DNA of 35,140 nt from positions 1-35,140 of IMG/VR virus record IMGVR_UViG_3300031703_000026. One strand, 5' to 3'. Position numbers and translations under genes: made by a program. The number at the start of each line of letters is the position of its first letter. Within the stretch, counting starts at the first letter, position 1. Below are positions 564-35,140 of this stretch, piece after piece. This DNA comes from a virus. The notes beneath the pieces were generated by a model. It had not been told where the DNA came from. It searched no databases and was given only the letters and a program-made list of their open reading frames with translations.

Positions 564-998
564 ATGAGTTGGACGTATAACAATATAGTAGTGAATGAAT
601 TACCTGAAGATGCTGAGGGATTTGTGTATCTGATTACCAATCTTTCTAATGACCGCAAATACGTAGGTAAAAAACTTGCGAGATTTAAGACTACTAAACC
701 TCCACTTAAAGGAAGAAAGAACAAAAGACGTGGTACTAAAGAAAGTGATTGGAGAACCTATTGGGGATCATCGGATCACTTGAATGCGGACGTGTTAGAA
801 TTCGGCGAAGATAACTTCACTAGAGAAATTTTGTGTTATTGTCCGAGTAGAGGAATACTAAGTTACATGGAAGCGAAAGAACAGTTTGACCGTAAAGTAT
901 TAGAAACTGACGAATACTATAATGGTATTATTAACGTAAGAATAGGAAGTTCAAAATTACTTTCTGAACATCTACAGAACCTTAACCAAAAAATATAG
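564..998 (+). CDS. GIY-YIG family endonuclease-like protein
   Basis: A 144-residue protein with a GIY-YIG nuclease pattern. The first half-motif is VYLI at residues 21-24 and the second is YVG at 33-35, followed by the lysine-rich loop and a W..YWGSS segment at about 63-70 that is typical of free-standing phage GIY-YIG proteins. E103 in the YMEAKEQF helix is the likely metal-binding glutamate. Such proteins are common in T4-like phages as selfish or homing nucleases that nick or cut DNA; the target here is unknown. There is no DNA-binding tail like that of I-TevI, so this is essentially a bare catalytic domain. The ribosome site is weak. The 3' end overlaps the converging small membrane gene by 17 nt. 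The family call is fairly sure; the homing role is inference. Confidence 0.75.
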   Translation: MSWTYNNIVVNELPEDAEGFVYLITNLSNDRKYVGKKLARFKTTKPPLKGRKNKRRGTKESDWRTYWGSSDHLNADVLEFGEDNFTREILCYCPSRGILSYMEAKEQFDRKVLETDEYYNGIINVRIGSSKLLSEHLQNLNQKI

Positions 999-13365: not shown

Positions 13366-14004
13366 ATGATTTTTGACAAACGAAAAGGTTCATTACTAAA
13401 TTACATACAATTACCATTACATGTAATAACGCCAACTGGCACGTACTTAGGAACGGGCTATGACGCAAAGAGTAAGCCAACTTACATATTATCACATGTG
13501 AAAGTAAACTTAGAGAGTGTGAACACCTTGGCGTTTTCATCAATGAGCACGGACGCTATAATTCTCGACAACAAACCAACACTTGATATTACTGATAGTG
13601 TAGTGGGTTATAAGTATAAAGTGTCTAATACTGAATCTAACTATGGATACATAACTGTTGCATCTACTCGAATAGATATTACATCTAAGAAGATAACGAA
13701 ACCAATGGCGGAATTTATTTTAGAAAAACAATTACGAAACATTGGTAATATATTAGAAAAGTTTATCAAAGTGAAAATAGCACAGCCACATTATGACGCA
13801 CTATTATATCATTTTTATAACGAAGGCACTAGTACTATAGAAAATAGTCCAGTGATTGCTCTTATAAATGTGGGCGATTGGTATTCTGTTACTGATGAAA
13901 TCCAAAAGAACATTAAAAAGAGTAATGGCACGATAGATGAACGATTGGCTCAACAGAAAATGAAAACTGCTAAGATGTTCAGTTTCGTGCCAAGTTTCTC
14001 TTAA
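13366..14004 (+). CDS. GH24 lysozyme-like protein lacking visible catalytic residues
   Basis: A 212-residue protein. Residues about 108-205 match the C-terminal lobe of phage GH24 lysozymes: [14 protein letters not shown] (like ITKDEAEKLF in T4), then [18 protein letters not shown], a short hinge, a helix with VGDW, and a closing QKMKTAKMF. The N-terminal part has a [10 protein letters not shown] stretch resembling the beta-lobe of lysozyme, but the catalytic Glu-Asp-Thr arrangement (E11, D20, T26 in T4 lysozyme) is not recognisable. It directly follows the gp5 spike that lacks a lysozyme domain. It may be a detached, possibly inactive, tail lysozyme serving as a structural plug. AAGGAT precedes the start. 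Its stop overlaps the clpP stop by 4 nt, converging. Confidence 0.55.
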
Positions 14005-14591
14005 CGAGCAGTTAAAACCTTATCTGCTAAACCAAACGCAACAGCCTCTTCGGCTGACATAAAGTTATCACGTTCCATTGCTTCTGTTAATTCATCAAAT
14101 GTCTTACCAGAAGTATTATGGTCTACATAGATTTGAGTTAATGATTTCTTCATTTTAAGAATTTCTTTAACTTGAATTTCCATATCAGTAGCCTGACCAC
14201 CAGCACCACCACTAGGTTGATGAATCATTGTGCGACTATTAGGCAATAGATGGCGCTTCCCTTTCGCTCCTGCTTGAGCAAGTAACGAACCCATTGAACA
14301 TGCTTGTCCCATTACGGTAGTCGCAACATCTGAACTGATGAATTGCATCGTATCATAAATTGCCATACCCGATGTGACTGAACCACCCGGAGAATTGATA
14401 TAGAAATGAATATCTTTATCTGGGTTTTCTGCTTCCAAGAATAATAATTGGGCGCAAATCAAATCGGCTTGATAGTCATTGACTTCGCTTGTTAGAAATA
14501 TTACTCGTTCTTTCAGTAAACGAGAGAAAATATCGTAACTGCGTTCGCCGTTTGCTGACTGGTCAACGACCATTGGTACTAAAGTTGGCAT
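14001..14591 (-). CDS. clpP: ClpP serine protease
   Basis: A 196-residue complete ClpP with the catalytic triad: S99 in [10 protein letters not shown]124 in MIHQPSGGA and D175 in MERDNFMS. It also has the [11 protein letters not shown] strand and the C-terminal GLADKVL, with the length of a bacterial mature ClpP. Cellular ClpP forms 14-mers that degrade proteins handed over by ClpX or ClpA. A phage copy could redirect host proteolysis, replace host ClpP, or act in head maturation. It lies antisense between two baseplate operons with its own TATAAATA box and an AGGA ribosome site. No Clp ATPase is visible in this window. The identification is firm; the role is inference. Confidence 0.95.
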
Positions 14592-19361: not shown

Positions 19362-22300
19362 ATGGCAAAGAAGATTTATGACTTTTTACCGAGTCATCTA
19401 AAGAACGATGAGTTAGAAACGATATTCGAAACTACACTCGACCGAGTGTTCTCTACTGGTGAAATGGAGAAGACAAAAGCATTTGTTGGCAGAAAGGAAA
19501 AGGGAATATATAACAGCAATGATATATATCTATCATATCCGGAACAGGCGTACGCAAGAGATAATTATGGCCTTGAACCAACATTCTCAAATCAAGATGC
19601 AACCGATAATGTATTCTATGATGATTTACTTAATGCAATGTATAATAAAGGCGCATTAACCAATGACCATAGAAGATTATTCAAGAGTACATTAGATACC
19701 GTAAGTTTACCAATAGACATAGATAAGTTTGTCAACTACAGTATGTATTACTGGATTGAGCCTGGATTTACTACTGATACAAGTAAGCAGATGTCAACAA
19801 AAAAACATTACATTACTATCGATAAGGGTAATGATGATTTTTGGAGTTCTAATAATTCTTGGTACCACCACGATGATATTAAGAATTTAATCGCCAATGG
19901 CGATTCTGCTTTTATGTCTCAAGCACTAAGACCTATTATTGAATTTGATAAGAACATCGAGTTAAGTACTACTAGTGTCGCGACCACAGTGGCATCTTCG
20001 TTTACTGTTCCTACATTTAAGTCATATGACTCTACTGGAACAACCCAACTTGCCGACATAAAAATATTTCATTATGTAACAAGTACCAACTATGCGCTAG
20101 ACAGTGTATTAGTATTTCCAATGGAAAATCTTGAGCCCGTCGGACCAAAGAAAATGACAGGAGATTATCAAAGTGAATTTGTATTTAAGATAGATTTGAA
20201 CGAAACTTCAACGTACTTGTATGATAATGTAACATACAAGAAGTTGTATATCAAATCAACATTTGATTATCGTAACCTTCGCCAAGAAATAGGCGATAGT
20301 ATAGCACTGACAGATATTGAATTACTTCAATCAGCAAAAAATCTTAACACAATTGATTTATACGTTGACGGACAAAAACAAATAAACAACTACGTATATA
20401 ATAGTAATACGAATATTATATCAATGGACGAATCAGTCAGTGGCAACGTATATGTTGATTATTGCACTGCGTTGCCAGTAGTGTACGATGGGGCGACCGT
20501 GTTTCAGCGTATCAATCCAGCAGTTGAATATAATGTAGATAACAAGCCATATTATAGTACGGAAGAAAATCCAGTAGATCTGCCATACTCTCTCGTCTAT
20601 GAGCATCTTGTTCGTATACTTGAGACCGTGCCAGCGTTAACTGGCAGCCCAATATCAAATAATAATTACAGAACTAGTGGAACAAATACAGATAAACTAA
20701 GACACGCGAATCAAGGAAGTGTACTTATTCGTAACACAGTTGATGTTAAAGAGGCATATTTTGCACTAACACGAGATGACTACGACCCAATTAAAGCAAC
20801 AGAATTTTTATCTGGTGCATACAGTGGTTATAAAAATAAATTATTAACTACGATTATTGCTATATTGGAATCAAGTACTAATGATACAAAAACTGATTTA
20901 CAACTTTTAGATGAAGCGATTAGTATTATTTCTCTAGGAAAACATAAGAGTGTGAGTATCTTCAGAGATAGTGGAATGATGAATTTTGGCGAGAATCAAT
21001 CTCATTACGAAACACTTGACATCATTGTCACAGTCGGCGCGACAGAACAACGCATGCCATCGTTTATCAATACAATATTAAACGACAAAGATATTGTTGT
21101 TATTCTAAACGGTATCACAAAAAAATTACGGGTAGACTATACTTTATCATCGGGCGCAACAGAAATAACTTTTAAATCAGTATTAACTGCCGCAGATAAG
21201 TTGACTATCAGACACTATACTAATATAAAAGAAACATATATACCACCGAGTGCAACTTCGTTGGGAATTGCCCCAGTTTATATCCCACGTATTATAACAG
21301 ATACAGAATATAGTTCTCCTGTTTCATTTATTCAAGGACATGATGGCTCATTGGTACCTACGTTCGGCACCCGAATTGATAATATTCTTCTTACGTTTGA
21401 GACTTTAATATTTAACAATTTACCAGACAATAACAGTACTAAAGTATCTAGTATGAATTACGGATTATACGGCACTGCTATCACTGAGTATTCGAACGTT
21501 GAAAAGAAGTATATCATGTATCCATTCTTTAAGAAATGGATGATGAGAAATAGCATTGACAATCTAGACAACACCGAATTTGATGATGTCGATTATAAGA
21601 CGTGGAACTACAGAGCAAAAGACGAAACTATTAGTGGACACTGGAGAGGACAACTAATAAATGCGTACGGCACAGATAGACCAATACAAGAACCTTGGAA
21701 AGCATTAAAATTATCTCAGAAGCCAACGGGATTTGATACAACCTATGGCACAGATTACACTTTAGTTTCGTTCTGGACAACATTGATATCAACTAATTTT
21801 TTAGATTGTCCAGTGCCAGTGTGGGATATCAGTAACGCTCCTACTACAGCAGATATTGGAAAACTAAAATCGCCAAGTGATTTATTCTTTAACAGTTCTA
21901 TCCCATCAAGTGACACCACAATGAGCCAAGCATGGGAATTTGGAGATAATTCTCCAGTAGAACTTGCGTGGACAAGAAGTAGTGAATTTGCTTTTGCTGA
22001 ATTTACATTAATGTTGTTGTCTAGTCCTTTCGAAGTGATGTACAATTATAATACAGAGATAAAAGAAATTATCAAGTATTCTAATAAAAATGAAGGCATC
22101 GACACTGATGTTGTTCTTGCTGATAAAGACAAGTATTCATTCAAGTTGGGCTCTAAGTTAGGCGGATTTGTTAATAATTTCAAACTACAATCAGAAAACA
22201 ATTCATTATCGAATAGTAGATTTTCTGAAATACCAACAGACAACTATGATTTAATTGTTCACGCTGGCGTACCAAATAGAAGTGAATTCTTTAGTGCTAT

Positions 22301-25300
22301 CGTACTAGAAAAGGTATCATTAGATTCACCATATCCTGTTTATAGTCATGCAACCGCAGTACATTCAACAAAGTTTTATGTTAAGGACGATATTGTACTA
22401 AACACTGGCGATAGCAAATACTATAAAAGAAAAACAACAGGCATTTCTACAAAAGAATCTGCCGGCATAATCACATTTGATTACAGCAGTTGGACACTTA
22501 TATCACAACCAAAGACTAGTAAATTCGGATTTCAAGTACACGGATACGATGAAATCAATCCAACATTCTATTCAATGGGTTGGGACAAATCAAGTGGCAA
22601 GAAAGTATTTTCAACAGCAGGTGAAAAACTTGCTCTAAAACAATGGCAGTCTGGTGAATATTATAGACTAGATTCGTATGTATTATGGAACGATACTCCT
22701 TATGTGTGTCTTACTAATCACACTGCAACTTCGTTATTTGACGATAACGTTAAAGATTGGAAAGCAGTAGTAGAATGGCCAACAACAAATAAAACAAACG
22801 CAAATGGTTATAAAGAATTAGTAGATGATACTATAAAGAATTATAATTATGGCGATATCTTAGAAACAGTAGATGACGTTGCTCATTTAATTATGGGTTA
22901 CCAACATTACTTAAAATTGGTAGGGTGGGAATTCACAGACACAGAACAAAGCGGTGATATCATAGATTGGGAAAATCTGTTGTACAAGTTCTTAGATTGG
23001 CAGACTGAACAACATTCTGTTGGAGACTTTATTACATTGACTCCGTTGTTGACGGGTGGTAGTTTCAATGCCACTTATGGTGTTGCGAGTGTAGCCACTG
23101 AAACATTCAAGAATTTTTACAGAGTAGTAGACTCATCGGGTAGACTTATTCCGAGTACTGAACTTGATTTTCATACAGACGGTGCCAAATTATCGTTCAC
23201 TAGTAATGTTTCTATCTATGGAATGAAAATAGACGTAAGAGACATTGAACATGCATTTGTTGTTGATAGAATCGATAGTTACGATGATGTTATATATGAT
23301 CCACATACTCACACTCGTAATCTTCGTATGCAAATTGATTGTAACCGAACAGTAGATTGGGATGGAACTATGTCTGTTGATGGATATCTGATACACGACA
23401 ACAAGTTAATACCAAACTTTGACACAATGATTGAAGAAACTCGTCATTATCGAAATACAATTGTCGACCAAGGATTGTCGATTGTTAACAAATTAAAATC
23501 GAATCATATGGGATATACGACTAGATCGTACTTGTCTAATCATGGAATTGAAAGAGAATCGCAACTAGAATTCTATAAAGGATTCTTATCTCACAAAGGA
23601 ACAAATTCAAGTATTAATAGAATTGTTAATAAAAACAGTAACTTCAAAGATATCAAGCATTCTGATATTTGGGCAGTTAAGTTAAGTGATTATGGACATG
23701 AATCAACAAATCTTGTAATGACAAAAGATGTAGTAGTCAACGATATGATTAGTGATCCATTCTTAATAGAATACGAGAATATAACAAAAACATTTGTTAC
23801 TGAAACTTCAAAACCCACGATAGCAATTAAGACCGCGGGATATGTTGATGCTACTGACGTGAACTACATAACTAACACTCAGAGTGATTTAGTGAATTTA
23901 TCAACATCAACCAATACTCTTTACGAGGGAGATACGGCATGGGTCCAGTTCGATCCAGACCGAGATTGGGATGTGGTACGATTAAGTGAAGTAGCAGAGA
24001 TAAGTTACGTTGGAGAAACGGCTGACAATCAATTATACATTGGAATGATTAATGAGATAGAGTCAACTTTCATTGATAAAGCAATTTATCTAAAGATTTC
24101 AGGCGCTGAAATAGACCCAACAATAGATGGATATTATTTACTTGCTGCCAATGGAACAAAAACAGTGAGTAGTAGTACTATTTACGAATACTTAGTATAT
24201 GAAGAAGATTTTGAGCCAGTAATTGTTGAAATAGATTCTTCAACTACTAATAGTATCTTTGTTCCGACGAATGCGGATTCGGGAATTGAAGCAATTGGTT
24301 CGGTAAGCAACCCTGTATTCACTAATAGTGACATACTAGTTGTTGATGGAACGAGTTTCACTTACACACCAGCATCTGCTTCAACCTCTGGAATCTCGAT
24401 ACTAGGAACAGTTGCAAATCCAACAGTATCAGAGGGAGAACAAGCAAGATTTGTTATTTACAATAACGGTGGATTAGTAGAGAACGCACAGACTACCGTA
24501 ACATTTACGGGCACAGTTGCACCAACTACATCTGTGTTTGCTGGATTATATAATGACCAAGTAACGATCGACGGCACGACTTTAACAGTAGACTATAGTT
24601 CTTCTGCTGGAATTTCATTAACTTCAAGTGCTACAAAAAGTTCAACACTTACTACGGGAAATACTGTTGCAATAGATGGAACAACAAAGACAGTAGCACC
24701 GTTGACTTTGACTGGAACAGTAACAGCGCCAGTAATGACAGCAACAAAACCATTATCAATTAATGGACAAGTTGTTACACTTACTAATGGAGATACTCTT
24801 GCTGAAATTATTACAGCAATTAATGGGACATCTACTATCGTACTTGCTAGTAACTCTGGAACTAATGAACTAGTTCTAACTACTTCATCGCCAGAATTAA
24901 ATATGTCCGGCAGTGCTTTACAAGACTTGGGATTATCTACTACTACATTGTACTATGATTCAAAACTAGACAATCTAGTATCTGAACTTAATACTATAAG
25001 TAATATTATTTGCTTGATTAGTGGTAGTAATATGACCATAACCAGTTCTGGTACTTCAATGATTATCTCTGGAACAGCATTATCTGAACTGGGCATTACA
25101 GCAGGCTCTTATGAAGCGAATTCTAGTCCAACCACAACAAGTGTTGTTTCTCAGATAAACGCACTAAATATATTGGGCGTATCCGCCGCAGTTGTAACTG
25201 GTACAATTAAAATAACAAGTACAAACCATAACTTAGATATAGTTGAAGTAACTGTAGGCGCGATGGGGAGATTGGGATACGCTACTACTACAGTGGCAGT

Positions 25301-28235
25301 AAATGCTACAGATAACATTATAAGTGATTTAAACTCTCAGGTATTCGCATCATCATCGTCTACTGCGACCAAATCTGATAGACAGATATTAATAACAAGT
25401 TCTGAAAGTAGTATAGTTGCCAGTAATATCATAGGAAATTCTCTATCTGATATTGGAATAACTGTTGGTACATATTCAAATACATCAGTATTAAGTTCTT
25501 CTGCTATCGCCTTCGCAGGACAAATTACAGATTCGGTCAACAACACGACTGGTCTTTCTGTCAATTTATCAAGTGATGGCAGAATGATATTCACTCACAC
25601 TGGGGTAAGTATGTCGTTTTCAGGCTCAAGTGAATTGGTATTAACTAAGATAGGACTTGTAAGGGATTACTCGAACGTAACGAGTAGTGCTAATTACAAA
25701 GCAATGCTTTGGAAATCTATTAGATACACTCCGGGATTTAACGGTAATACATTTACTGAATTCTACACTAATCTAGGATTGAACAGTGCGAGTAAATTAT
25801 GGGCAGATGATTACGAGGACAGAGGTTGGGCGGTGCTTAATAGAAGTGTCAGTCCAACAACAGTTACCGTTTTCGCTAGACAGTCAAAAGTCATTGACAC
25901 CAATTTAACAAAAAGATTAATAGTAAAAGATGGCGACAACTTCATTAATCATCAAATATATGATCCACTTAACTTAAAAATGCCAGGCTCTATTGTTTCT
26001 AAATTAGATTACGTAATATGGACTGATCCTGCGAGTTACGACACTGTTACTAGTTCTGATATCTGGTTAGATGAGAAGTTGGGCAAAATATGGTGGGACA
26101 CAGACTTAGCAAGATTCTATAGATACAACGACTATGGTGATAAGGATGGAAATTTAAACATCAATTACGTGAAGAGACACTGGGGATTATTAGTGCAAAA
26201 CTCAACAGTAGTTATAAAGAAATGGACAAAATCTAGAATCTTGCCAATCGAAACACCAATATATAATACTAAGAAATATTACGATGATGCCGCGGGTAAA
26301 GTAGTTACAGACTATTTCTATTGGTCATCGACTAGTGCTGATGTCATTGAACTTGTGATGTTGATTTCTGCTGGCGGCACTAAGAATAAATTTATACCAG
26401 TTGGTCCATCGAGTGTTCTTATTAGTAATAATGCTACTTCATATAACAGCGAGACAATACATACGACATTACATTATCAACAAGAGACTGGAATCCGTAA
26501 GGCTCACACTGATTGGGAAATGTTAGCAGAGAATTCAGATACAACTGTACCAGTCACATTCTTGAATGATATGATCGATTCTGTATCTAATCTTACAATT
26601 GAAGAGACACACACAAGTAAACTTACTGATTCTGAACTAGGCAAGGGTGTTTCGCCAGTCGGTGATGTCAACCATGCAAAAATTCTTATTTCGTGGATTG
26701 CAGGACTAGATATCGATAGTATAGTAGTTACGCTTGATAGTAACACAGTAAAAGCGAGTCATTTAAGTATCGCCGGTTCAATCTTAAAGATATCACAATC
26801 ACACTCTATGGTGAAAGGCGATGTACTGCGAGTGTATAAGATAGGAACTAAGACAGATAACTGGTTTACAAACAATACAAGTGCTAGGGGCAATTTCACT
26901 TCGGTTGTAAATACTGCGATGAGTAGTCAGTTGCTAGTAAGTGAGTATCCTAAGTACGCAGAGTATATAAACACAGATGATATTATCTTTAAACTAAGTG
27001 ATTGGTATCTAAATGACAATTACAAAACAATAGATTCATTCTCGTATGTATCGACTACTAGAAATTTTGATATGGATCTGGAGTATAAAAATGGAATAAA
27101 ATCATTTAAGTTAACACTTCCACTAGATTCAGAAAATGGCATCCCAGCACATGATGAATATTTCTTTGAAGAAGATAACATATTAAAATTGGTTAACAAA
27201 AGTGATAGTGCGTTGAATGTATCACTTGATGATATAGTGTATCCAGAACAATCATATAATGTCTATTATAATAATGCAGTCGGAATTCAAATTCAAGAAT
27301 TAATGAATATGATCAAGGATTATTCTACTACTTCTTTTATTAATAGTATATTCTTTTCTATGATAGATTATCTCTACACCGAAAAGACTTATCCTGCTTG
27401 GTTGTTTAAAACAAGTTATATAGATTTGAATTTGTATAATCGAGATCTTAAACAACATGCAGTGTATCAACGAGATAGCGAAGAAGATATATTAGAATAT
27501 ATCAGAGAAGCAAAGCCATATCATGTTAAAGTGCGAGAAATTACTCGGACTACTGCAACTAGTGATAAAGCAATACTGGCTGCAACGGTAGATGAAAAGA
27601 TGCATCTTACCTTGGGATTTGGTGAACATAGCAGATATGAAGAAACATTGTATGATGGCAATACAAGTGGCACAGCGGATACAACAGATGATATTTTTTG
27701 GGGCAACACTGGAGACCTCGACCAGGGATCACTTCTAAGATACCGACCAACACATACTGCATCTTCAACCGGATTTGATACTGGGTTCGTAAGATTTGAT
27801 GGATTGGAATCAACGATACTGAAGTTAGAAACGTACTCTGATATTATCTTTGATCGAACAACTGGTGCACCATTGTCACACTCTGAAAATATTGTTGACA
27901 CCTTATTGTATGTTTATGATATTCACGGACGAGGATATAGTATCAAAGCCACACCAGCAGGAACTATTTCAGCGTTTAATGGAACAACTCTCACTGTATC
28001 TAATCCAGGTGATTTTGATGAAACAGTGTCGAATGCTGATAAGAAAATGATAGCCCTACAAAAAGCCAATAGTTCAGACATGGAATTCATGTTATACGAG
28101 AATTTCGATTTTGCGAGTGAAGTGATGACAATCAGTGATAGAATGTTATACAACAACACAGTGCATGAATTTGTAGACGGAAGTATAGTATATGTACTTG
28201 ATACTCCTTCACCAATAGTTTTACAAGACTTATAG
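19362..28235 (+). CDS. Giant baseplate wedge/structural protein in the gp7 position
   Basis: A 2957-residue protein directly after gp6, where T4 has gp7 (1032 residues). The N-terminus (YDFLPSHLKNDELE, FSTGEMEKTKAFVGRKEKG, NDIYLSYPEQ) and the C-terminal block PAWLFKTSYIDL followed by YIREAKPYHVKVRE are patterns I associate with the large post-gp6 structural proteins of marine T4-like phages. Residues about 1640-2100 form a S/T-rich repeated region: first strands around GT-V-P and IDGTT, then tandem units resembling the flagellar hook 'IN' motif. No protease or enzyme motif was seen. It probably forms wedge arms and baseplate periphery. Equivalence with gp7 is by position and uncertain in sequence. 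Confidence 0.7.
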   Translation: MAKKIYDFLPSHLKNDELETIFETTLDRVFSTGEMEKTKAFVGRKEKGIYNSNDIYLSYPEQAYARDNYGLEPTFSNQDATDNVFYDDLLNAMYNKGALTNDHRRLFKSTLDTVSLPIDIDKFVNYSMYYWIEPGFTTDTSKQMSTKKHYITIDKGNDDFWSSNNSWYHHDDIKNLIANGDSAFMSQALRPIIEFDKNIELSTTSVATTVASSFTVPTFKSYDSTGTTQLADIKIFHYVTSTNYALDSVLVFPMENLEPVGPKKMTGDYQSEFVFKIDLNETSTYLYDNVTYKKLYIKSTFDYRNLRQEIGDSIALTDIELLQSAKNLNTIDLYVDGQKQINNYVYNSNTNIISMDESVSGNVYVDYCTALPVVYDGATVFQRINPAVEYNVDNKPYYSTEENPVDLPYSLVYEHLVRILETVPALTGSPISNNNYRTSGTNTDKLRHANQGSVLIRNTVDVKEAYFALTRDDYDPIKATEFLSGAYSGYKNKLLTTIIAILESSTNDTKTDLQLLDEAISIISLGKHKSVSIFRDSGMMNFGENQSHYETLDIIVTVGATEQRMPSFINTILNDKDIVVILNGITKKLRVDYTLSSGATEITFKSVLTAADKLTIRHYTNIKETYIPPSATSLGIAPVYIPRIITDTEYSSPVSFIQGHDGSLVPTFGTRIDNILLTFETLIFNNLPDNNSTKVSSMNYGLYGTAITEYSNVEKKYIMYPFFKKWMMRNSIDNLDNTEFDDVDYKTWNYRAKDETISGHWRGQLINAYGTDRPIQEPWKALKLSQKPTGFDTTYGTDYTLVSFWTTLISTNFLDCPVPVWDISNAPTTADIGKLKSPSDLFFNSSIPSSDTTMSQAWEFGDNSPVELAWTRSSEFAFAEFTLMLLSSPFEVMYNYNTEIKEIIKYSNKNEGIDTDVVLADKDKYSFKLGSKLGGFVNNFKLQSENNSLSNSRFSEIPTDNYDLIVHAGVPNRSEFFSAIVLEKVSLDSPYPVYSHATAVHSTKFYVKDDIVLNTGDSKYYKRKTTGISTKESAGIITFDYSSWTLISQPKTSKFGFQVHGYDEINPTFYSMGWDKSSGKKVFSTAGEKLALKQWQSGEYYRLDSYVLWNDTPYVCLTNHTATSLFDDNVKDWKAVVEWPTTNKTNANGYKELVDDTIKNYNYGDILETVDDVAHLIMGYQHYLKLVGWEFTDTEQSGDIIDWENLLYKFLDWQTEQHSVGDFITLTPLLTGGSFNATYGVASVATETFKNFYRVVDSSGRLIPSTELDFHTDGAKLSFTSNVSIYGMKIDVRDIEHAFVVDRIDSYDDVIYDPHTHTRNLRMQIDCNRTVDWDGTMSVDGYLIHDNKLIPNFDTMIEETRHYRNTIVDQGLSIVNKLKSNHMGYTTRSYLSNHGIERESQLEFYKGFLSHKGTNSSINRIVNKNSNFKDIKHSDIWAVKLSDYGHESTNLVMTKDVVVNDMISDPFLIEYENITKTFVTETSKPTIAIKTAGYVDATDVNYITNTQSDLVNLSTSTNTLYEGDTAWVQFDPDRDWDVVRLSEVAEISYVGETADNQLYIGMINEIESTFIDKAIYLKISGAEIDPTIDGYYLLAANGTKTVSSSTIYEYLVYEEDFEPVIVEIDSSTTNSIFVPTNADSGIEAIGSVSNPVFTNSDILVVDGTSFTYTPASASTSGISILGTVANPTVSEGEQARFVIYNNGGLVENAQTTVTFTGTVAPTTSVFAGLYNDQVTIDGTTLTVDYSSSAGISLTSSATKSSTLTTGNTVAIDGTTKTVAPLTLTGTVTAPVMTATKPLSINGQVVTLTNGDTLAEIITAINGTSTIVLASNSGTNELVLTTSSPELNMSGSALQDLGLSTTTLYYDSKLDNLVSELNTISNIICLISGSNMTITSSGTSMIISGTALSELGITAGSYEANSSPTTTSVVSQINALNILGVSAAVVTGTIKITSTNHNLDIVEVTVGAMGRLGYATTTVAVNATDNIISDLNSQVFASSSSTATKSDRQILITSSESSIVASNIIGNSLSDIGITVGTYSNTSVLSSSAIAFAGQITDSVNNTTGLSVNLSSDGRMIFTHTGVSMSFSGSSELVLTKIGLVRDYSNVTSSANYKAMLWKSIRYTPGFNGNTFTEFYTNLGLNSASKLWADDYEDRGWAVLNRSVSPTTVTVFARQSKVIDTNLTKRLIVKDGDNFINHQIYDPLNLKMPGSIVSKLDYVIWTDPASYDTVTSSDIWLDEKLGKIWWDTDLARFYRYNDYGDKDGNLNINYVKRHWGLLVQNSTVVIKKWTKSRILPIETPIYNTKKYYDDAAGKVVTDYFYWSSTSADVIELVMLISAGGTKNKFIPVGPSSVLISNNATSYNSETIHTTLHYQQETGIRKAHTDWEMLAENSDTTVPVTFLNDMIDSVSNLTIEETHTSKLTDSELGKGVSPVGDVNHAKILISWIAGLDIDSIVVTLDSNTVKASHLSIAGSILKISQSHSMVKGDVLRVYKIGTKTDNWFTNNTSARGNFTSVVNTAMSSQLLVSEYPKYAEYINTDDIIFKLSDWYLNDNYKTIDSFSYVSTTRNFDMDLEYKNGIKSFKLTLPLDSENGIPAHDEYFFEEDNILKLVNKSDSALNVSLDDIVYPEQSYNVYYNNAVGIQIQELMNMIKDYSTTSFINSIFFSMIDYLYTEKTYPAWLFKTSYIDLNLYNRDLKQHAVYQRDSEEDILEYIREAKPYHVKVREITRTTATSDKAILAATVDEKMHLTLGFGEHSRYEETLYDGNTSGTADTTDDIFWGNTGDLDQGSLLRYRPTHTASSTGFDTGFVRFDGLESTILKLETYSDIIFDRTTGAPLSHSENIVDTLLYVYDIHGRGYSIKATPAGTISAFNGTTLTVSNPGDFDETVSNADKKMIALQKANSSDMEFMLYENFDFASEVMTISDRMLYNNTVHEFVDGSIVYVLDTPSPIVLQDL
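24290..25670 (+). repeat. Diverged protein repeats with flagellar hook-like IN motif inside the giant gene
   Basis: Residues about 1640-2100 of the giant protein contain several diverged tandem units, best seen from about residue 1800. Each has a pattern like V-EIITAIN----I-LAS-----LVLTTSS-ELNMSG-ALQDLGL-T, repeated with SALSELGIT, MGRLGYATT, SLSDIGITVGTY and VLTKIGL endings. The order 'DLGIT, linker, helix with IN, strand, ITS strand' is that of the Flagellin_IN motif of FliD/FlgL. Nucleotide identity between units is low, so duplication is old. Surrounding sequence is not repetitive. Confidence 0.55.
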
Positions 28236-28315: not shown

Positions 28316-28996
28316 ATGTTTAATGACAAAATAGACTCACAAGTAATCGGTACACTGAAAATCTACGATAAAGATAGTGGAGAAATGCTTGTGCAAAAGA
28401 AAAATGCAATACACCCTGGAAACATGGCGTATGTTCTTGCATCGGCACTTGCAGGCACGCCAACAAGTGTGAATAGTGCTGGTACTACTGGACCAAGTAT
28501 CAATTGGATGGCGTTTGGTAACGGAGGAAGTGTATCTACTACTACACTTTCATATAAGTCACCAAGAGTATCTACAATATATGATACTCAATCGATAATA
28601 GCGAGTAGTTCGTCATTATATTCGCCGAAGTATGAACAAGAGATATTAGCAGTTGGTAAAACTGTATCTTATCCAGGGCAGCCGTTAGACGGTGACCTAA
28701 AAGTGCCAAACAACACAGCAAAAGTGAAATTTAGTGTGGAAGTATCTCACGCAAAATACGCCGCCGATGCACGTCAAGGTAGCGAACTTATACCAGCGAG
28801 TGATAGTTCGACTGATACCACCGCAGTAGCCGCTTTTACCTTCGATGAAATTGGATTATTATCTGGTGTCACTAATGCGGGTGTATTAGAAAAAGAAAAA
28901 ACATTAATGTTAACACATGTGACTTTCCATCCTGTGTTGTTGGCAGCAAATCGAACGATTGTAATTGACTACACGATTACAATTCAAATTAGTTAA
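28316..28996 (+). CDS. Virion structural protein, probable baseplate/fibre attachment protein
   Basis: A 226-residue protein opening with LKIYDKDSGEMLVQKKNAIHPGNM, a strand-rich start, and closing with FDEIGLLSG, then KTLMLTHVTFHPVLLAANRTIVIDYTITIQ. That closing block is a recurrent end of short tail-fibre or baseplate decoration proteins in marine T4-like phages. It lies where T4 has the gp8-gp12 peripheral baseplate genes, but it does not resemble T4 gp8. It has its own late boxes and precedes two fibre-like genes. A structural role is likely; the specific function is unknown. Confidence 0.55.
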   Translation: MFNDKIDSQVIGTLKIYDKDSGEMLVQKKNAIHPGNMAYVLASALAGTPTSVNSAGTTGPSINWMAFGNGGSVSTTTLSYKSPRVSTIYDTQSIIASSSSLYSPKYEQEILAVGKTVSYPGQPLDGDLKVPNNTAKVKFSVEVSHAKYAADARQGSELIPASDSSTDTTAVAAFTFDEIGLLSGVTNAGVLEKEKTLMLTHVTFHPVLLAANRTIVIDYTITIQIS

Positions 28997-29013: not shown

Positions 29014-29925
29014 ATGGCTTCAGGCTCAACAATACATAACGCGGATTTAAGCAGTCTTCGTAACAAGATGAATACAATACTGAACGGGACTGGAGTACTG
29101 GGTGGTTATAACCAATCACACTCTGTCGCGGCAAACCCGGTATCAGGTGCATTAATTGATGATTCGTACTTAGATTCACTTCATAGTGCGGCTACAAAGA
29201 TAGCAAATTTTTACAACATATCAAATCCATTCACTGCGGTAAACGCAGGAACAGTGGTAAACTGGTCACATTACGGAAGTAGTGCAGCCTCATTTGAATC
29301 TTCAATCAACTCAAGATTCGTTGCGCCATGGTCATATGCGACTGGATGGGACACTAGTGTTCAGAATGAAACATCTCAAACTGTATCTAACTGGAACGGT
29401 TCGCGCATACAAATAGTACGCACTACATTTACTTCAACAGCAGTTATGGACGCATGGTTCGCCGCGGGTGGCGAAATTCGAGTTTCAGCATCACATAGTG
29501 ATACAACTTCTAATCAACAAGGAACTTCTTGGGAACAACTTGCTAGTGAAATGGGAACATATAAAATCTCAGCAAACGCTACAGTAACTAATACAGATAC
29601 ATCTACTAATAAAAAGTATTCAGATTTAACTGGCAGTTACGTACTTGTCAAGCGCGAATATGCAAATGACTCTGATTACAGTGCTAACCAAATTACAATC
29701 CATGCATACAAGTCTGGTACATCTATTTACGTGAAGACTACATTAAACGATGCTCACGTGGCTCGTACAGGTGGTGGCTCAGGTTATAATGGTGCATGGT
29801 CGTGGACTGGTACTGACTCTGTTCCTGGAACATCAACAGTAACAGTTGCGTCACTTAGAATGACGAACCCTGCTGGTTCTGTTAGTATTGCAAATCCATC
29901 ATTTACTGTAACAGACAATCTATAA
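29014..29925 (+). CDS. Fibre-like virion structural protein, first of a paralogous pair
   Basis: A 303-residue protein rich in S, T, N and aromatic residues, with no enzyme motif. It has a short helical N-terminal part (LSSLRNKMNTILNG) and a beta-rich body. A central WFAAGGEIRVSAS block (about residues 149-161) followed by TSWEQLASEMGTYK is repeated in the next gene as FFNAGGEIRFDAV and VDWQTLLSDIATVK. The C-terminus ends in strands with W-WTGTDSVPGTSTVTVASL, also echoed in the neighbour. AGGAG precedes the start. I infer a tail or baseplate fibre, possibly receptor-facing. Confidence 0.55.
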   Translation: MASGSTIHNADLSSLRNKMNTILNGTGVLGGYNQSHSVAANPVSGALIDDSYLDSLHSAATKIANFYNISNPFTAVNAGTVVNWSHYGSSAASFESSINSRFVAPWSYATGWDTSVQNETSQTVSNWNGSRIQIVRTTFTSTAVMDAWFAAGGEIRVSASHSDTTSNQQGTSWEQLASEMGTYKISANATVTNTDTSTNKKYSDLTGSYVLVKREYANDSDYSANQITIHAYKSGTSIYVKTTLNDAHVARTGGGSGYNGAWSWTGTDSVPGTSTVTVASLRMTNPAGSVSIANPSFTVTDNL

Positions 29926-29945: not shown

Positions 29946-30917
29946 ATGTCTATACCGCAAAGCTATAATTTAGGAGGTAAAATTCGTGCTTCGGATTTTA
30001 ATCTCTTTGCTAACGATATAAATGACATTGTAGGTACTGGCACAAACGATTCGGGTTATGGTCAAGGTCATCTCGTTGTTACCAACGCTGTAGTAGGCGC
30101 ATCAGTAACAGCATCATTGTGGGATGAACTCTTGACTTCAATCAAGTATGTTGCCAGACACCAAGGAACATCAATAACAACTCCAACTAACACATCAGAT
30201 GCTAGTTGGCCATCGCCTACTCGGCTCATTGAAATATTCCCAACACTTACGGCTGATATAGCAACTATTGTATCTAATAAATTGAATAGCAGTTTATCGT
30301 ATATGACCATAAATGCTAATAAGATTTCATCATCAGAGACTTACATAGATCCACTTGATGGCATTCCTAACTGGACATCAGCATCTCAAGTGTTCTACGA
30401 AGCAAATATAACATACCCAAATGCCAATGCACGTAGACACTTTTTTAATGCGGGTGGCGAAATAAGATTTGATGCTGTGCTTAGTGGGGTAGATGGCTCT
30501 CATGCACAGAGTGTAGATTGGCAAACATTGTTGAGTGACATCGCCACTGTAAAAATGGGACATACTGCAACTGAGAGTTCAGCAAGTGTCGGCACTCCTG
30601 GTGTAGGATTCAATAATCTTACTACAAGTTATACATTAGTATATACAAAGGGTGGCACTGGAAATTATTCTGGCAACCAATTGAACGTTCACGCAAAACT
30701 TAATGGCACTACGGGCATTGACTTTAAACTCGCTTTCGATGAAATTTATCCCGCCGCAACTGGAACATGGAGTAACCCACCTGATAGTGGACCTTGGACT
30801 GGCACGGACTATGTTGCTGGATTACTAACTGTCACATTAGATGAACTTAGTCCGTCTGATTCACCGGATGGAGTGTCTCTTCCATCACCAACTTATTCAC
30901 ACATTTCTCAACTATAA
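29946..30917 (+). CDS. Fibre-like virion structural protein, second of a paralogous pair
   Basis: A 323-residue paralogue of the preceding protein. They share the N-terminal layout (SDFNLFANDINDIVGTG in the helical start), the central FFNAGGEIRF block (residues about 166-175), the W-LLSDIAT helix, and a C-terminal GPWTGTDYVAGLLTVTL end. The region between is diverged, as expected if the two evolved different surfaces. A purine-rich GAGAGATAG is the ribosome site, 20 nt after the previous stop. It is the last gene before the sigma70-like promoter at 30921. A structural fibre function is inferred from composition and position. Confidence 0.55.
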   Translation: MSIPQSYNLGGKIRASDFNLFANDINDIVGTGTNDSGYGQGHLVVTNAVVGASVTASLWDELLTSIKYVARHQGTSITTPTNTSDASWPSPTRLIEIFPTLTADIATIVSNKLNSSLSYMTINANKISSSETYIDPLDGIPNWTSASQVFYEANITYPNANARRHFFNAGGEIRFDAVLSGVDGSHAQSVDWQTLLSDIATVKMGHTATESSASVGTPGVGFNNLTTSYTLVYTKGGTGNYSGNQLNVHAKLNGTTGIDFKLAFDEIYPAATGTWSNPPDSGPWTGTDYVAGLLTVTLDELSPSDSPDGVSLPSPTYSHISQL

Positions 30918-30920
30918 GAC

Positions 30921-30949
30921 TTGACTTTTAGGGCATTTTGCTGTATTAT
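30921..30949 (+). promoter_or_regulatory. Sigma70-like promoter of the glycosyltransferase cassette
   Basis: TTGACT (30921-30926), a 17-nt spacer and TATTAT (30944-30949), in the 55-nt gap before the start at 30973. The -35 matches the promoters at 1428-1456 and 5935-5964 exactly. No T4 late box is present. This suggests expression with the host-sigma class, not with the structural genes upstream. Confidence 0.65.
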
Positions 30950-30972
30950 TAATACTAATATAGGAGAAAACC

Positions 30973-31368
30973 ATGACAGTCATTACCAACGAAGCAGGCG
31001 TTATACAGCCTTCAGATGAAGATTTAAAACGACTAGAGAAAGCGTTAGACTTTTCTAACACTATGAAGACGTTTAATCTATCAAAAAACAACCTCAAAGT
31101 TAAAACACAAAACTTACTTAGTTACAGTACTTCAGGTGGCTCGTTCTCCGTTGACCAATCATTAATATCTTTTATGAACTTTGTGGTTTCAAGTGGTAAA
31201 ACTGAAATCTCATTGCTTGATAAAAATGATATCCCAATTCGCATAGAAGATACTGAAAAGTTTCTAGATGAAGTCTCAAGTTTATATTTTGAAGTAGTGA
31301 ATGATTACTACAATGAATATCAACAACTCCGTAGTTCACGCAAAATAGAAAAAGTCTTAGAGATTTAA
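30973..31368 (+). CDS. Conserved-looking protein of unknown function
   Basis: A 131-residue soluble protein with no recognised domain. The N-terminus (about residues 13-40) is helical and charged, the middle has a S/T/G-rich strand region, and residues about 75-131 form a strand plus two helices (KFLDEVSSLYFEVVNDYYNEYQQLRSS). AGGAG 5 nt before the ATG supports the start. It is the first gene behind the sigma70-like promoter and ends 2 nt before the first glycosyltransferase, so it is probably co-expressed with the modification genes, perhaps as an adaptor. Function unknown. Confidence 0.6.
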   Translation: MTVITNEAGVIQPSDEDLKRLEKALDFSNTMKTFNLSKNNLKVKTQNLLSYSTSGGSFSVDQSLISFMNFVVSSGKTEISLLDKNDIPIRIEDTEKFLDEVSSLYFEVVNDYYNEYQQLRSSRKIEKVLEI

Positions 31369-31370
31369 AT

Positions 31371-32243
31371 ATGAGTAAGGGTATAATAATATTTGCTCAA
31401 AATAATGAGTACGTTAACTATGCTGAAACTGCCTGCGCGTGTGCAGGTTTTGCCAGAAAGAATCTTTCGTTGTTTGATGAAATTTGTCTAATCACTAATA
31501 CTGAAACATTAGAGCAAAATGAAACATTAATCAATGAATATTTTGACAGAATAATTGTTACTGATTCTTTTCAACCTGACAATATAAGACTGTTTAAAGA
31601 CACTCCAGATAAGACAGAATACGCATCCTTCAAGAACATGTCTAGGTCCGAAGTATACGAACTCTCACCGTATGATGAGACATTGGTCATCGATGGCGAT
31701 TACTTCATCATGAATGATGTATTGGACCAAGTATGGAATAGTGTCAATGATGTTATGATTAATTGTCATTATCGAGATGTATCTGGGAGACACGCAGAGC
31801 ATATAGAATACATTGATAACTTTAGTATTCCAATGTATTGGGCAACTGTTGTATATTTTAAAAAATCTGATTACGCGGCAAGTCTATTCACGCTAATAAG
31901 TCACATAAAACATAATTACAAGTATTACTATTACCTGTATAACTGTAGTGGTTCATTGTATCGTAATGACTTTGCATTCTCGATGGCACTTCATATACTA
32001 AATGGTAGTGTGGCATTTGATGTACCTGCGTTGCCAATTACATATCTCAACAACAGTTTTGACATTGATGATATCTTTCGAGTTAATTCTCATAACGATA
32101 TTATAATGTATTGCGCGGACGCAGAAAGAATTACAGATCATATTCTAACAAGATTCACAAATACTGATTTGCATATTATGAACAAGAAGGCGATAGCACG
32201 ATTTATTGATGACTTCTTATTGTACGGAGAAAAAGTAAAATGA
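31371..32243 (+). CDS. GT-A fold glycosyltransferase-like protein, copy 1
   Basis: A 290-residue protein with a nucleotide-sugar transferase layout: an N-terminal strand-turn MSKGIIIFAQNNEYVNYAE, a strand ending at LITNTET, then VIDGDYFI with the metal-binding D108-x-D110 (DxD), preceded by SPYDETL. It is a paralogue of the next protein, which shares MSKG-I-IAQN, the YDET-DxD block and the NFT/VVYFKKS strand. The family resembles GT8-like or other GT-A enzymes; donor and acceptor are unknown. No signal peptide or membrane anchor, so cytoplasmic. Its stop overlaps the next start (ATGA). The GDY in place of the SDM of its paralogue suggests divergence. Confidence 0.65.
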   Translation: MSKGIIIFAQNNEYVNYAETACACAGFARKNLSLFDEICLITNTETLEQNETLINEYFDRIIVTDSFQPDNIRLFKDTPDKTEYASFKNMSRSEVYELSPYDETLVIDGDYFIMNDVLDQVWNSVNDVMINCHYRDVSGRHAEHIEYIDNFSIPMYWATVVYFKKSDYAASLFTLISHIKHNYKYYYYLYNCSGSLYRNDFAFSMALHILNGSVAFDVPALPITYLNNSFDIDDIFRVNSHNDIIMYCADAERITDHILTRFTNTDLHIMNKKAIARFIDDFLLYGEKVK

Positions 32244-33094
32244 GCAAAGGATATATAACTATCGCACAAAATAGTGGAGATACCGATTATTTGGAAATGT
32301 CTTACGCACTTGCTCTCAGTCTAAAAGCAACACAAGAGAACAGTAATCTTTGTGTATGCGTAGATGAAGAAACTAAGAAACTGATTACAGACAAGCATGT
32401 ACAAGCATTCGATAAGATTGTTGATATTCCCTGGAACGATGATGCTATCGGAGACAAGTGGAAGATTCACAATAAGTGGAAATATCCACATATGACTCCG
32501 TATGATGAAACTATTATACTTGATAGCGACATGTTATTCACTACTAGCGTAGATCATTGGTGGCAGTATCTTGCTAAGAGAGATGTATGGTGTTGTACTA
32601 ATGTCAAAACTTTTAGAAACGAAGATGTAACAAGTGACTATTACCGAAAGAAGTTCACACAATTAAATCTTCCAAACGTGTATAGTAACTTCACTTACTT
32701 TAAGAAGTCAGAGTTAACATTCGAGTTCTTTAAGATGGTCGAGTTGATTATGACTCATTGGAATGTATACTTCGATAAGTTTCTAAATGGAGTAGGACAA
32801 AATTGGATGAGCGCCGATGTTGCTTATGCGTTAGCAATTCAACTGTTAGATATCGAAGAAGAGACATGCGACTATACTATTAAAGATGTTCCTACGTTTG
32901 TTCATATGAAAAGTATGATTCAAAATGTACCAGTAAATCAAATAGAAAGTAACTGGACGAAAAGTATCACTAGTGAACTAAGCGATGACTTACAAGTTAA
33001 GATTGGCAATTTTACTCAAACATTACCATTACATTACGTTGAGAAAGATTGGATGGATGACAGTAAGATTGTACAACTTGAGAGGGCACAATAA
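32240..33094 (+). CDS. GT-A fold glycosyltransferase-like protein, copy 2
   Basis: A 284-residue paralogue of the preceding gene. D95-S-D97 in TIILDSDMLF is a canonical DxD motif for Mn-dependent sugar transfer. An upstream KWKIHNKWKYPHMTPYDET block and downstream NVYSNFTYFKKSEL match the fold order. H-rich segments near the end (PTFVHMKS, LPLHYVEK) could supply the third metal ligand. Cytoplasmic, with no membrane segment. It starts within the previous stop (ATGA) with GGAG upstream, and its stop overlaps the next start by 1 nt (TAATG), so the three are translationally coupled. Target unknown: host glycans, phage proteins and phage DNA are all possible. Confidence 0.7.
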   Translation: MSKGYITIAQNSGDTDYLEMSYALALSLKATQENSNLCVCVDEETKKLITDKHVQAFDKIVDIPWNDDAIGDKWKIHNKWKYPHMTPYDETIILDSDMLFTTSVDHWWQYLAKRDVWCCTNVKTFRNEDVTSDYYRKKFTQLNLPNVYSNFTYFKKSELTFEFFKMVELIMTHWNVYFDKFLNGVGQNWMSADVAYALAIQLLDIEEETCDYTIKDVPTFVHMKSMIQNVPVNQIESNWTKSITSELSDDLQVKIGNFTQTLPLHYVEKDWMDDSKIVQLERAQ

Positions 33095-33666
33095 TGTTAA
33101 GTGTTATAGAAAAAACTGATTCATGTCGTGCTGTGTATTTCGACAGCATCAGTAAGATCACTCAGATAACAAATCAAATTCAAGATACAAAAGATTTATT
33201 TGCATATTTCGAGTTTGAAACAATCAAGCCATTCCTTGAAGGCACACTCAAGTTCTCTGACCACATAGTCACTCGAACAGCAAATCCATTGATATATGAA
33301 ATTATAAAAACAAAAGTTGATATTAATCGAAGAAATAAAGACAATCAACTGCACAAAATAACAACAACAAGTGGTGCTGATATTTTATTATACATCGAAA
33401 ATGATGAGTTAGTATTTGAAGCAAGTGAAAGTTTAAAGAAAAGTATCGGAATTGATCCGAATCAAGTAGTGACAGTAGCGGGAAAAACAGAACACGTATT
33501 TTTTGTTACGTACAAAGATAAGCCAGAGTTCTTAATCAAGACTGTTCTAGTTCCATTTTCTGAATTGCTCTCTACTGGAAAAAGAGTTAAGTACGAAGAG
33601 AATAAATACAGTATAAGCGTGTATACGCAAAAGTATTTTGATAAGTATTCTTGGAGAAAAGTATGA
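33094..33666 (+). CDS. Protein of unknown function within the glycosyltransferase cassette
   Basis: A 190-residue soluble protein without a recognised family. It is helical at the start (KITQITNQIQDTKDLFAYFEFETIK), has an alternating K/D/E middle (about residues 65-110), and a strand-rich C-terminal half ending in KYSISVYTQKYFDKYSW. The ribosome site is AGAGGG. Overlap by 1 nt with the upstream glycosyltransferase and by 4 nt with the downstream one shows that it belongs to the unit. It may be an accessory or target-recognition protein; that is inference from coupling only. Confidence 0.6.
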   Translation: MLSVIEKTDSCRAVYFDSISKITQITNQIQDTKDLFAYFEFETIKPFLEGTLKFSDHIVTRTANPLIYEIIKTKVDINRRNKDNQLHKITTTSGADILLYIENDELVFEASESLKKSIGIDPNQVVTVAGKTEHVFFVTYKDKPEFLIKTVLVPFSELLSTGKRVKYEENKYSISVYTQKYFDKYSWRKV

Positions 33667-34646
33667 AAACAACAGAAGTAATCATTGGCGACTTGGATGT
33701 GTTTTACATCAGTTACGATGAACCAGCAAAGGAAGAACATTGGGCAAACCTAATGATGAAGTTTCCGTTTGCAAAACGAGTTGACGGAGTAAAGGGGTTT
33801 GATAACGCACACAAAGAATGTGCAAGACAAAGTGAAACGGATAGATTTATTACTATTGATGGTGATAACATCGTTGATGACAAGTTTTTTGACCTTGCCA
33901 TTGCATTTCCGCCTGACACTGACATAGAACATTCTATCATCAGTTGGAGTGCTAAAAACAGAGTAAATGGATTAGTATACGGAAACGGTGGAATCAAATG
34001 TTGGCCAGTACAACTAGTGCTAGATATGAAAACGCACGAGAACGCAGTTGACGAAACAAAGAAAGTCGATTTCTGTTGGGACTTAAACTATATTCAAATG
34101 AACAATGTGTACTCAGAAGTACTCAATGCAGGCTCACCATTCCAGGCATTCCGAGCAGGATATCGTGAAGGTGTCAAGATGGCATTAGACGAGGGCAACA
34201 CGGTACCCGTTGAAGATTTCAAGAAACGTATTTGGCCAAAGAACTACGAGCGATTGATTACATGGTGTAATGTCGGCGCAGATGTAGAGAATGGTCTATG
34301 GGCTTGCTATGGCGCACGATTGGGATGTTATGATGTAAACTTTGTTAAAGATTATAAGTTAGAAAACATTTCATCATTCGATTGGTTCAAGACGTACTTC
34401 GATGAAGAGATTGCTCCTTTAGTTGCAGGCGGCGATATGAAATGTTCTAGAACAGGATTAGTATGGGATTATGACAAACTATTTGATGAGTGTATCCGTG
34501 TTGGTGATATTCTTGTTGATAAGATTGGAATGGAAATCGCAGACCCAACGCCAGAATTGAGTGCATTCTTTAAAAGAGTTTATACCAATCCACCAAGAGT
34601 TAATAATCCACTAGCAACTGAGAAGCAAACTGGCTGGGATAGATAA
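33663..34646 (+). CDS. Third DxD glycosyltransferase-like protein
   Basis: A 327-residue protein unlike the two paralogues but also of GT-A type: RFITIDGDNIVDDKFF carries D66-x-D68, followed by SWSAKNRVNGLVYGNGGIKCWP (about residues 98-120), a conserved acceptor-side block in related phage proteins I have seen near radical SAM genes. The C-terminal half is helical and W-rich. The start at 33663 (ATG in an ATGA overlap with the previous stop, GGAG just upstream) is preferred over a TTG four codons earlier. Its stop overlaps the radical SAM start by 1 nt. Sugar donor and acceptor unknown. Confidence 0.65.
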   Translation: MKTTEVIIGDLDVFYISYDEPAKEEHWANLMMKFPFAKRVDGVKGFDNAHKECARQSETDRFITIDGDNIVDDKFFDLAIAFPPDTDIEHSIISWSAKNRVNGLVYGNGGIKCWPVQLVLDMKTHENAVDETKKVDFCWDLNYIQMNNVYSEVLNAGSPFQAFRAGYREGVKMALDEGNTVPVEDFKKRIWPKNYERLITWCNVGADVENGLWACYGARLGCYDVNFVKDYKLENISSFDWFKTYFDEEIAPLVAGGDMKCSRTGLVWDYDKLFDECIRVGDILVDKIGMEIADPTPELSAFFKRVYTNPPRVNNPLATEKQTGWDR

Positions 34647-35140
34647 TGGCAAATTACGATGATGATGCGGCAGTAACAAGGGGCGAACTTAATAAGTTGT
34701 CTCCATCAATGTGTATGGCAAAATGGCTCCAAGTGAGTTTACATTTACCACAAGGACGCACACATAGTTGTTACCATCCACCTACTCATCCGATTCCTTT
34801 AGAGGAGTTAAAAAAGAACAAGAACGCACTACATAACACGCAGTTCAAGTTACAAGAACGGAAAGAAATGAAAGAGGGCATTCGTCCAGAAGGATGCCAG
34901 TATTGTTGGAATGTTGAAGACGCCCCAAATCCACCAGCAGTAGTTGGCGGACCAGAACCAGAACCTAGGCTTAGTGATAGACATTATCGCTCAAGTGAAT
35001 GGTGGGTCAAAGAAGCATGGGAAGAAGTAGTAGACAATGCATGGGACCACGATATTGCTCCAAGATATGTTGAAGTAAATTTCAACCAAGCGTGTAATTT
35101 CAAGTGTGCTTACTGTTCACCACATTTATCTACAGCGTGG
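34646..35140 (+). CDS. Radical SAM enzyme, twitch/SPASM-like, cut by the window end
   Basis: The first 165 residues of a longer protein; the reading frame is still open at the window edge. C150-x3-C154-x2-C157 (CNFKCAYC) is the canonical radical SAM motif that binds a 4Fe-4S cluster. Upstream are further cysteine positions, C23, C42 (HSCYHPPTHPIP), C84 and C87 (CQYCW), spaced like an auxiliary cluster-binding 'twitch' module placed N-terminal to the barrel. The enzyme would cleave S-adenosylmethionine to start a radical modification of a peptide, sugar or nucleotide. It starts in a TAATG overlap with the glycosyltransferase-like gene, with GGGAT as ribosome site. Substrate unknown. Confidence 0.85.
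   Translation, partial: MANYDDDAAVTRGELNKLSPSMCMAKWLQVSLHLPQGRTHSCYHPPTHPIPLEELKKNKNALHNTQFKLQERKEMKEGIRPEGCQYCWNVEDAPNPPAVVGGPEPEPRLSDRHYRSSEWWVKEAWEEVVDNAWDHDIAPRYVEVNFNQACNFKCAYCSPHLSTAW

Follow-up and report, generated by a model that had tools for sequence, protein, structure and literature searches.

The virus record IMGVR_UViG_3300031703_000026, a stretch of 35,140 bases analyzed here in full (the window), ends inside a cassette of six plus-strand open reading frames (ORFs), g1 to g6 (30973-35140), which encode three predicted glycosyltransferases, two small proteins and a radical SAM enzyme and stand behind three genes of a tail fibre module, f1, f2 and f3. In aquatic relatives the cassette sits at the end of a fibre operon like that of the phage PA5oct. 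Gene order and sequence divergence indicate that g1 to g5 are one unit, of which the radical SAM gene g6 is a looser member. The most likely reading, though just short of one we would call probable outright, is that the cassette is a cytoplasmic glycosylation module dedicated to tail fibres.

Layout and conservation of the cassette

The cassette follows an intergenic stretch (30921-30972) and consists of g1, a small conserved protein encoded alongside the transferases (30973-31368, 131 amino acids (aa)), the predicted GT8-like glycosyltransferases g2 (31371-32243, 290 aa) and g3 (32240-33094, 284 aa), the mostly beta-stranded g4 between the transferases (33094-33666, 190 aa), the predicted glycosyltransferase g5 of a GT-A-fold family without a Pfam name, and g6 (34646-35140), a radical SAM enzyme of the N-terminal twitch type that the contig end truncates. 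The ORF program puts the start of g5 at a TTG (33651). Since the ATG at 33663 overlaps the g4 stop codon as ATGA and has a GGAG a short way upstream, g5 is best taken as 33663-34646 (327 aa), and the spacings from g1 to g6 are then +2, -4, -1, -4 and -1 nt. A preliminary description of the window, made from its sequence, had stressed this tight coupling, and the arrangement indeed recurs in more than 140 distinct cassettes, with a g1-g2 distance of at most 10 nt in 307 of 308 cases (counts that include redundant loci). Recurrence on this scale, together with the tight spacing, means that the layout is not due to chance.

Relatives in IMG/VR were found via g6, g5 and g3 and then through a wider g5 scan, and a fresh scan was anchored on g2 alone to lower bias; each scan took the best 80 loci, so that the counts given here are samples and not census figures. 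The order f1-f2-f3-g1-g2-g3-g4-g5-g6 recurs repeatedly. Among g2-anchored loci, g1 was found upstream in 71 of 73, and downstream of g2 came g3 (61/61), g4 (58/61) and g5 (60/61), whereas g6 was nearby in 39 of 61 only. Of the 141 distinct cassettes left once near-duplicates were removed, 137 have a fibre-family gene, recognized with an iterated hidden Markov model (HMM) seeded with f2, no more than two ORFs upstream of g1, and in 130 it directly adjoins g1.

Co-divergence was compared in a matched set of 39 cassettes with an adjacent full-length g6, using only g6 genes that adjoin g5, as the g6 HMM counts every radical SAM paralogue of the twitch type. Sequence identity co-varies among g1, g2 and g5 (Spearman 0.83-0.88), in contrast to g6, whose co-variation with the other genes is 0.16-0.48 (0.21 with g5), and the order and coupling of g1 to g5 hold across very large divergence. 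Because g6 is absent near about one third of the g2-anchored cassettes and its divergence tracks the core poorly, the earlier proposal of one pathway of sugar transfer and a radical reaction does not stand as an obligate one. The expectation that the genes travel together is borne out for g1 to g5 behind a fibre gene and holds more loosely for g6.

A tblastn search of g1 to g6 against the 50,697 phage records of INPHARED, which may omit very near records, gave no match to any of the six genes, and distant g5 members gave none there at E up to 0.01. Since a positive control with gp55 retrieved 372 records, this lack of matches is not a failure of the tool, and the remark that single members occur in marine phages found no backing in these records. 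Some IMG/VR loci (L324, L347, L369 and similar) have no radical SAM gene nearby; in them g5 is succeeded by another g5-like gene and then by genes on the opposite strand, of which the first looks like thyX by eye. The fibre-glycosyltransferase cassette was also seen in contigs of bacterial and archaeal metagenome-assembled genomes (L178-L184 and L197; Rickettsiales, Neomarinimicrobiota, Pacearchaeota and others), which are probably phage contigs binned with cells.

Predicted enzymes of the cassette

The description of g2 and g3 as paralogous DxD transferases is confirmed at the profile level (profile-profile probability 99.8, E 6e-28). The DxD motif of g2 (D108, D110) is invariant and that of g3 largely retained. 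The g3 profile matches glycogenin-1/2 over residues 3-108, including the DxD region (E about 1e-5), and its C-terminal half is without a match; the g2 profile matches glycogenin weakly (E 0.25), and two g3 relatives match PF11051 (Mannosyl_trans3). Unlike glycogenin, a GT8 enzyme, none of the 30 g2 and 31 g3 members matched the Pfam GT8 model at E up to 0.01, and since no curated GT8 model matched we refer to g2 and g3 as GT8-like and not as GT8.

Sequence searches with g5 gave no useful match. Its AlphaFold2 model (predicted local distance difference test (pLDDT) score 90, predicted template modelling (pTM) score 0.87) matches mostly glycosyltransferases over residues 1-168, with a best Z of 9.9 over 139 residues at 3.3 Å, although the Foldseek result by itself was weak (best E 3e-3) and nucleotidyltransferases that share the fold (MobA, IspD) score nearly as high. 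D62, D64 and N65 (DxDN; residues numbered from window position 33675) are invariant in 32 sequences. Taken together, the modelled fold, this motif and the neighbouring genes make g5 look like a glycosyltransferase of the GT-A fold. A distant copy of g2 or g3 was considered and is unsupported at the profile level (E 0.23). The chlorovirus PBCV-1 glycosyltransferase (2p73, 2p72, 2p6w), for which the structure titles name the major capsid as target, and mimivirus R699 (9dyt) resemble g5 in being virus-encoded and of GT-A fold; however, g5 shares with them the common fold only (Z 8.4-8.8, about 10% identity), and many GT-A and nucleotidyltransferase structures reach such Z values. The preliminary assignment of the DxD proteins to the glycosyltransferases thus gains support from the glycogenin match of the g3 profile and from the g5 fold search.

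The model of g4 (pLDDT 87, pTM 0.65) is mostly beta. Neither a fold search nor a profile search against PDB gave a significant match for g4, and the significant fold matches in BFVD were to uncharacterised phage proteins only. For g1 the profile search against PDB returned MutL (E 0.005), covering part of the domain only, which we take as a chance match. Membrane segments were predicted in none of the six cassette proteins of the window.

The window holds 165 aa of g6, out of about 526 in full-length relatives, before the contig ends. This fragment matches the NCBIfam model NF033640 (N_Twi_rSAM; E 1e-34; 120.1 bits, a score limited by the truncation; model positions 1-136), and a full-length orthologue (L019:10001-11815) scores 302.8 bits against the curated cut-off of 170, placing g6 by sequence in the N-terminal twitch radical SAM subfamily. 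Across 86 unique orthologues the CX3CX2C triplet (C150/C154/C157) is 100% conserved, and ahead of it C23, C42, C84 and C87 are each 98% conserved; the extra cysteines pointed out earlier are these four, the N-terminal twitch cysteines for a putative auxiliary Fe-S cluster.

Genomic surroundings

The fibre module is headed by a very large VrlC-like virion structural protein of 2957 aa (19362-28235, plus strand; PHROG 10938, E 2e-192), which is preceded by baseplate wedge genes and whose position corresponds in PA5oct to an 11.6-kb virion structural gene with a product detected by mass spectrometry. It is followed on the same strand by f1 (28316-28996), a virion-associated protein (phrog_11259, 7e-32), and by the fibre-family paralogues f2 (29014-29925) and f3 (29946-30917), which hit each other at 25-29% identity; f3 lies directly 5' of the cassette and is a candidate acceptor. 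The homologues of f1 and f3 in PA5oct, gp357 (BLASTP E 3e-28) and gp360 (29% identity, E 1e-14), were both detected by electrospray ionisation tandem mass spectrometry. PA5oct shows the same backbone of wedge genes, giant structural protein, f1 homologue, tail fibres and gp360, whose products carry annotations of detection by this method, and opposite-strand genes come immediately after.

The gene content after the cassette varies strongly between loci. Eighteen large records have between 1 and 20 Radical_SAM matches each, the top counts being 20, 19, 18 and 17; in G011, G002, G006 and G001 (IMG/VR, behind the loci L076, L019, L035 and L031), with 17-20 matches each, many are clustered downstream of the cassette. 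The islands of two records contain 72 proteins, 23 of which match Radical_SAM and 23 N_Twi_rSAM, along with UDP-glucose dehydrogenases, carbamoyltransferases, TylF and C-methyltransferases (C- and O-methyltransferases), a DegT aminotransferase, GDP-mannose dehydratase-type and epimerase proteins and a cytidylyltransferase-like protein. Nucleotide-sugar synthesis genes, a feature of O-antigen and lipopolysaccharide (LPS) clusters, are thus found downstream in two relatives, and the window ends before that region. Carbamoyltransferase (NodU-like) genes occur in the phage islands of L294 (7086-8591) and L296 (14955-15929), which is unusual for phages.

A Kyte-Doolittle scan, crude as it is, of 198 ORFs around the cassette and island in 11 loci found one marginal hydrophobic stretch in each of six ORFs and no multi-pass protein of the kind expected for a flippase, polymerase or initiating transferase. 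As membrane functions of its own were not seen, membership of the cassette in an O-antigen or LPS cluster is less likely; action on the host surface would still be possible, since the host could export the product.

A g5 scan of bacterial genomes returned some phage-cassette contigs (L178-L184, for example) and some chromosomal loci. In Bdellovibrionia, g5 is present in 11 of 144 genomes, as a tandem g5-g5' in five of them and with an adjoining twitch radical SAM gene in several; at one of these loci there are GT2, radical SAM and amidotransferase-like genes as well. These loci differ from the phage cassette in that a fibre gene and g1 to g4 were not seen in the stretches read, and g2 was found in none of the 144 genomes in a search without a positive control. 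In Photorhabdus (L202, L201) a g5 relative lies in a chromosomal cluster with transferase-like genes, an isopentenyl diphosphate (IPP) isomerase and an ABC transporter, as judged by eye, which may be a surface-glycan or natural-product cluster.

The phage genes of the window include a gp55-type late sigma factor, SbcCD (gp46/47)-type genes and T4-type wedge subunits. By gp55, the nearest cultured relatives in INPHARED are PA5oct-type Pseudomonas and Erwinia/Serratia jumbo phages, and by f1 they are Salicola phage SCTP-2, PA5oct and RaK2; the virus is hence not a standard marine T4 relative, contrary to its initial placing as T4-like. Contigs bearing the cassette reach 342-457 kb, which is consistent with jumbo genomes. 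Since the T4-type late promoter TATAAATA occurs zero times on the plus strand and sigma-70-like sites do not exceed their frequency in shuffled sequences, promoter motifs gave no reading of the timing of expression; Rfam and tRNA searches of the window gave no match. Within the baseplate region, a head-maturation-protease (ClpP-like) gene is oriented the other way (14001-14591, minus strand), and a 144-aa protein (564-998, plus strand) matches a PHROG labelled NAD synthetase (4e-36) as well as homing endonuclease families, so that the label may be wrong. In G013 the gp55-like gene (C1:18056-18916) was matched as two pieces in one open frame, which suggests an insertion relative to the gp55 gene of the window.

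Possible targets of the predicted glycosyltransferases

We favour the fibre reading because of the near-obligatory place of the cassette behind fibre genes, the soluble enzymes, the sugar-making genes and the two possible adaptors. The linkage of transferase genes to structural genes, a feature of virion glycosylation, is present in the 137 of 141 cassettes mentioned above, and the detection of the PA5oct homologues of f1 and f3 as virion proteins supports the fibre reading as well. Under this reading, the soluble g2/g3 pair and g5 would draw on nucleotide sugars and attach sugars stepwise to a virion protein, most likely one of the two fibre proteins whose genes lie just ahead of the cassette, f3 or f2, and g1 and g4 may act as non-catalytic adaptors or chaperones joining fibre and transferases. 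By analogy within its subfamily, g6, like the twitch radical SAM enzymes downstream, could serve as a tailoring enzyme for the sugar, its donor or the acceptor, e.g. by dehydrogenation, epimerisation or deoxygenation. Exchange of these enzymes between phages would then change the outer glycan while the core stays fixed. We infer catalysis, acceptor, order of steps and the roles of g1 and g4 from gene content and position. A precedent for virion glycosylation comes from a different set of phages, the mycobacteriophages, whose virions carry glycans (Freeman et al. 2023, referenced in PMC10568470).

Several observations weigh against this reading. The Ser+Thr content of fibres adjoining the cassette has a median of 22.5%, against 22.2% in PA5oct gp360, which has no cassette beside it, and fibre-core co-variation in the matched set (0.46-0.57) is not clearly above f1-core co-variation (0.38-0.58). 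Ser/Thr richness thus failed as a discriminating mark of fibre glycosylation, and fibre-core co-divergence, which exceeded that of f1 on unmatched pairs but not clearly so once matched, was not used as evidence; both are neutral between a fibre and a host-surface target. In addition, no phage gene was seen in the stretches read around the chromosomal g5 and twitch radical SAM pairs of Bdellovibrionia. The pair therefore does not need a virion acceptor, and its occurrence there speaks for g5 and twitch radical SAM enzymes working together where no virion is required.

The preliminary description had left fibre, host surface polymer and DNA side by side as targets; the fibre is now favoured and the host surface is a serious rival, given a rather low probability. 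In that case LPS or capsule would be altered during infection, so that competitors could not superinfect or progeny would not adsorb again to debris. Published work reads in this way the glycosyltransferases, mainly GT8, of the pelagimyophage host recognition cluster (PMC7029224) and the LPS gene clusters in jumbo phages (PMC13282480), and a host-surface target would suit both the O-antigen-type nucleotide-sugar genes of the islands and the g5 relatives in chromosomal stretches of Bdellovibrionia and Photorhabdus, some with GT2 genes. Yet genes that modify the host surface have no obvious need of a place behind fibre genes, where the core is found in 137 of 141 cassettes, and the 198 ORFs showed neither a membrane transferase nor a flippase or polymerase, an observation that is not decisive as export could come from the host.

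It is improbable that the region is merely a hot spot for cargo behind the fibre operon, with g1 to g5 and g6 as neighbouring but unrelated pathways. The patchy presence of g6 (39/61), its poor tracking of g5 (0.21) and the strongly varying downstream gene content would agree with this, whereas the order and coupling of g1 to g5 are kept over very large divergence, and g5 and twitch radical SAM genes pair in Bdellovibrionia too; such an explanation may hold for g6 but hardly for g1 to g5. Glycosylation or hypermodification of DNA or a host protein as counter-defence, with the fibre-side place serving expression timing only, is very unlikely: phage glycosyltransferases can act on DNA (PMC7029224) and genes co-expressed with structural genes could act before packaging, but the transferases match glycogenin-like and GT-A enzymes and the listed matches included no DNA glucosyltransferase, no systematic search for base-modifying partners having been made; DNA, a possible target in the preliminary description, gained no support.

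Glycosyltransferases, with GT8 the most represented, and radical SAM cassettes have already been reported near marine myophage fibres, in the host recognition cluster that pelagimyophages carry between VrlC and gp14 (PMC7029224). That cluster is likewise a variable region beside tail-fibre genes and behind a VrlC-type protein; it is, however, described there as non-syntenic and variable, in contrast to the fixed fibre-g1-g5 core that precedes the variable part in the PA5oct-type jumbo relatives studied here. The T4-like environmental genome TARA_ERS488813_N000010, a marine myovirus whose 12 radical SAM genes have no explained role, is comparable in its richness in such genes (up to 20 Radical_SAM matches per record here), but the part of PMC5332604 that describes it treats them as Fe-S proteins and draws no link there to fibres or glycosyltransferases. 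In the open-licence literature we found no description of a fixed five-gene core behind a fibre gene, of the unnamed GT-A family of g5 or of the looseness of g6, nor a publication defining a function for the gene combination, in agreement with the preliminary description.

Host choice of a phage is set by its receptor-binding fibres. If the fibre reading is true, a conserved sugar-transfer core tied to fibre genes, with a changeable radical SAM part, would offer fibre variation or masking beyond changes in protein sequence, and some of the numerous radical SAM genes that stand without explanation in aquatic viruses would gain a function. It is possible, if doubtful, that a large group of uncultured aquatic jumbo phages goes further and makes an elaborate fibre glycan, using the g1-g5 core with a variable nucleotide-sugar and twitch radical SAM set to build sugars unlike those of the host; such a tail-fibre glycan factory would be a phage parallel to those of chloroviruses and mimiviruses. 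The g5 family, with its invariant DxDN and no Pfam name, is a defined target for enzymology. Should the host surface be the target instead, the module still illustrates a way in which jumbo phages could remodel that surface.

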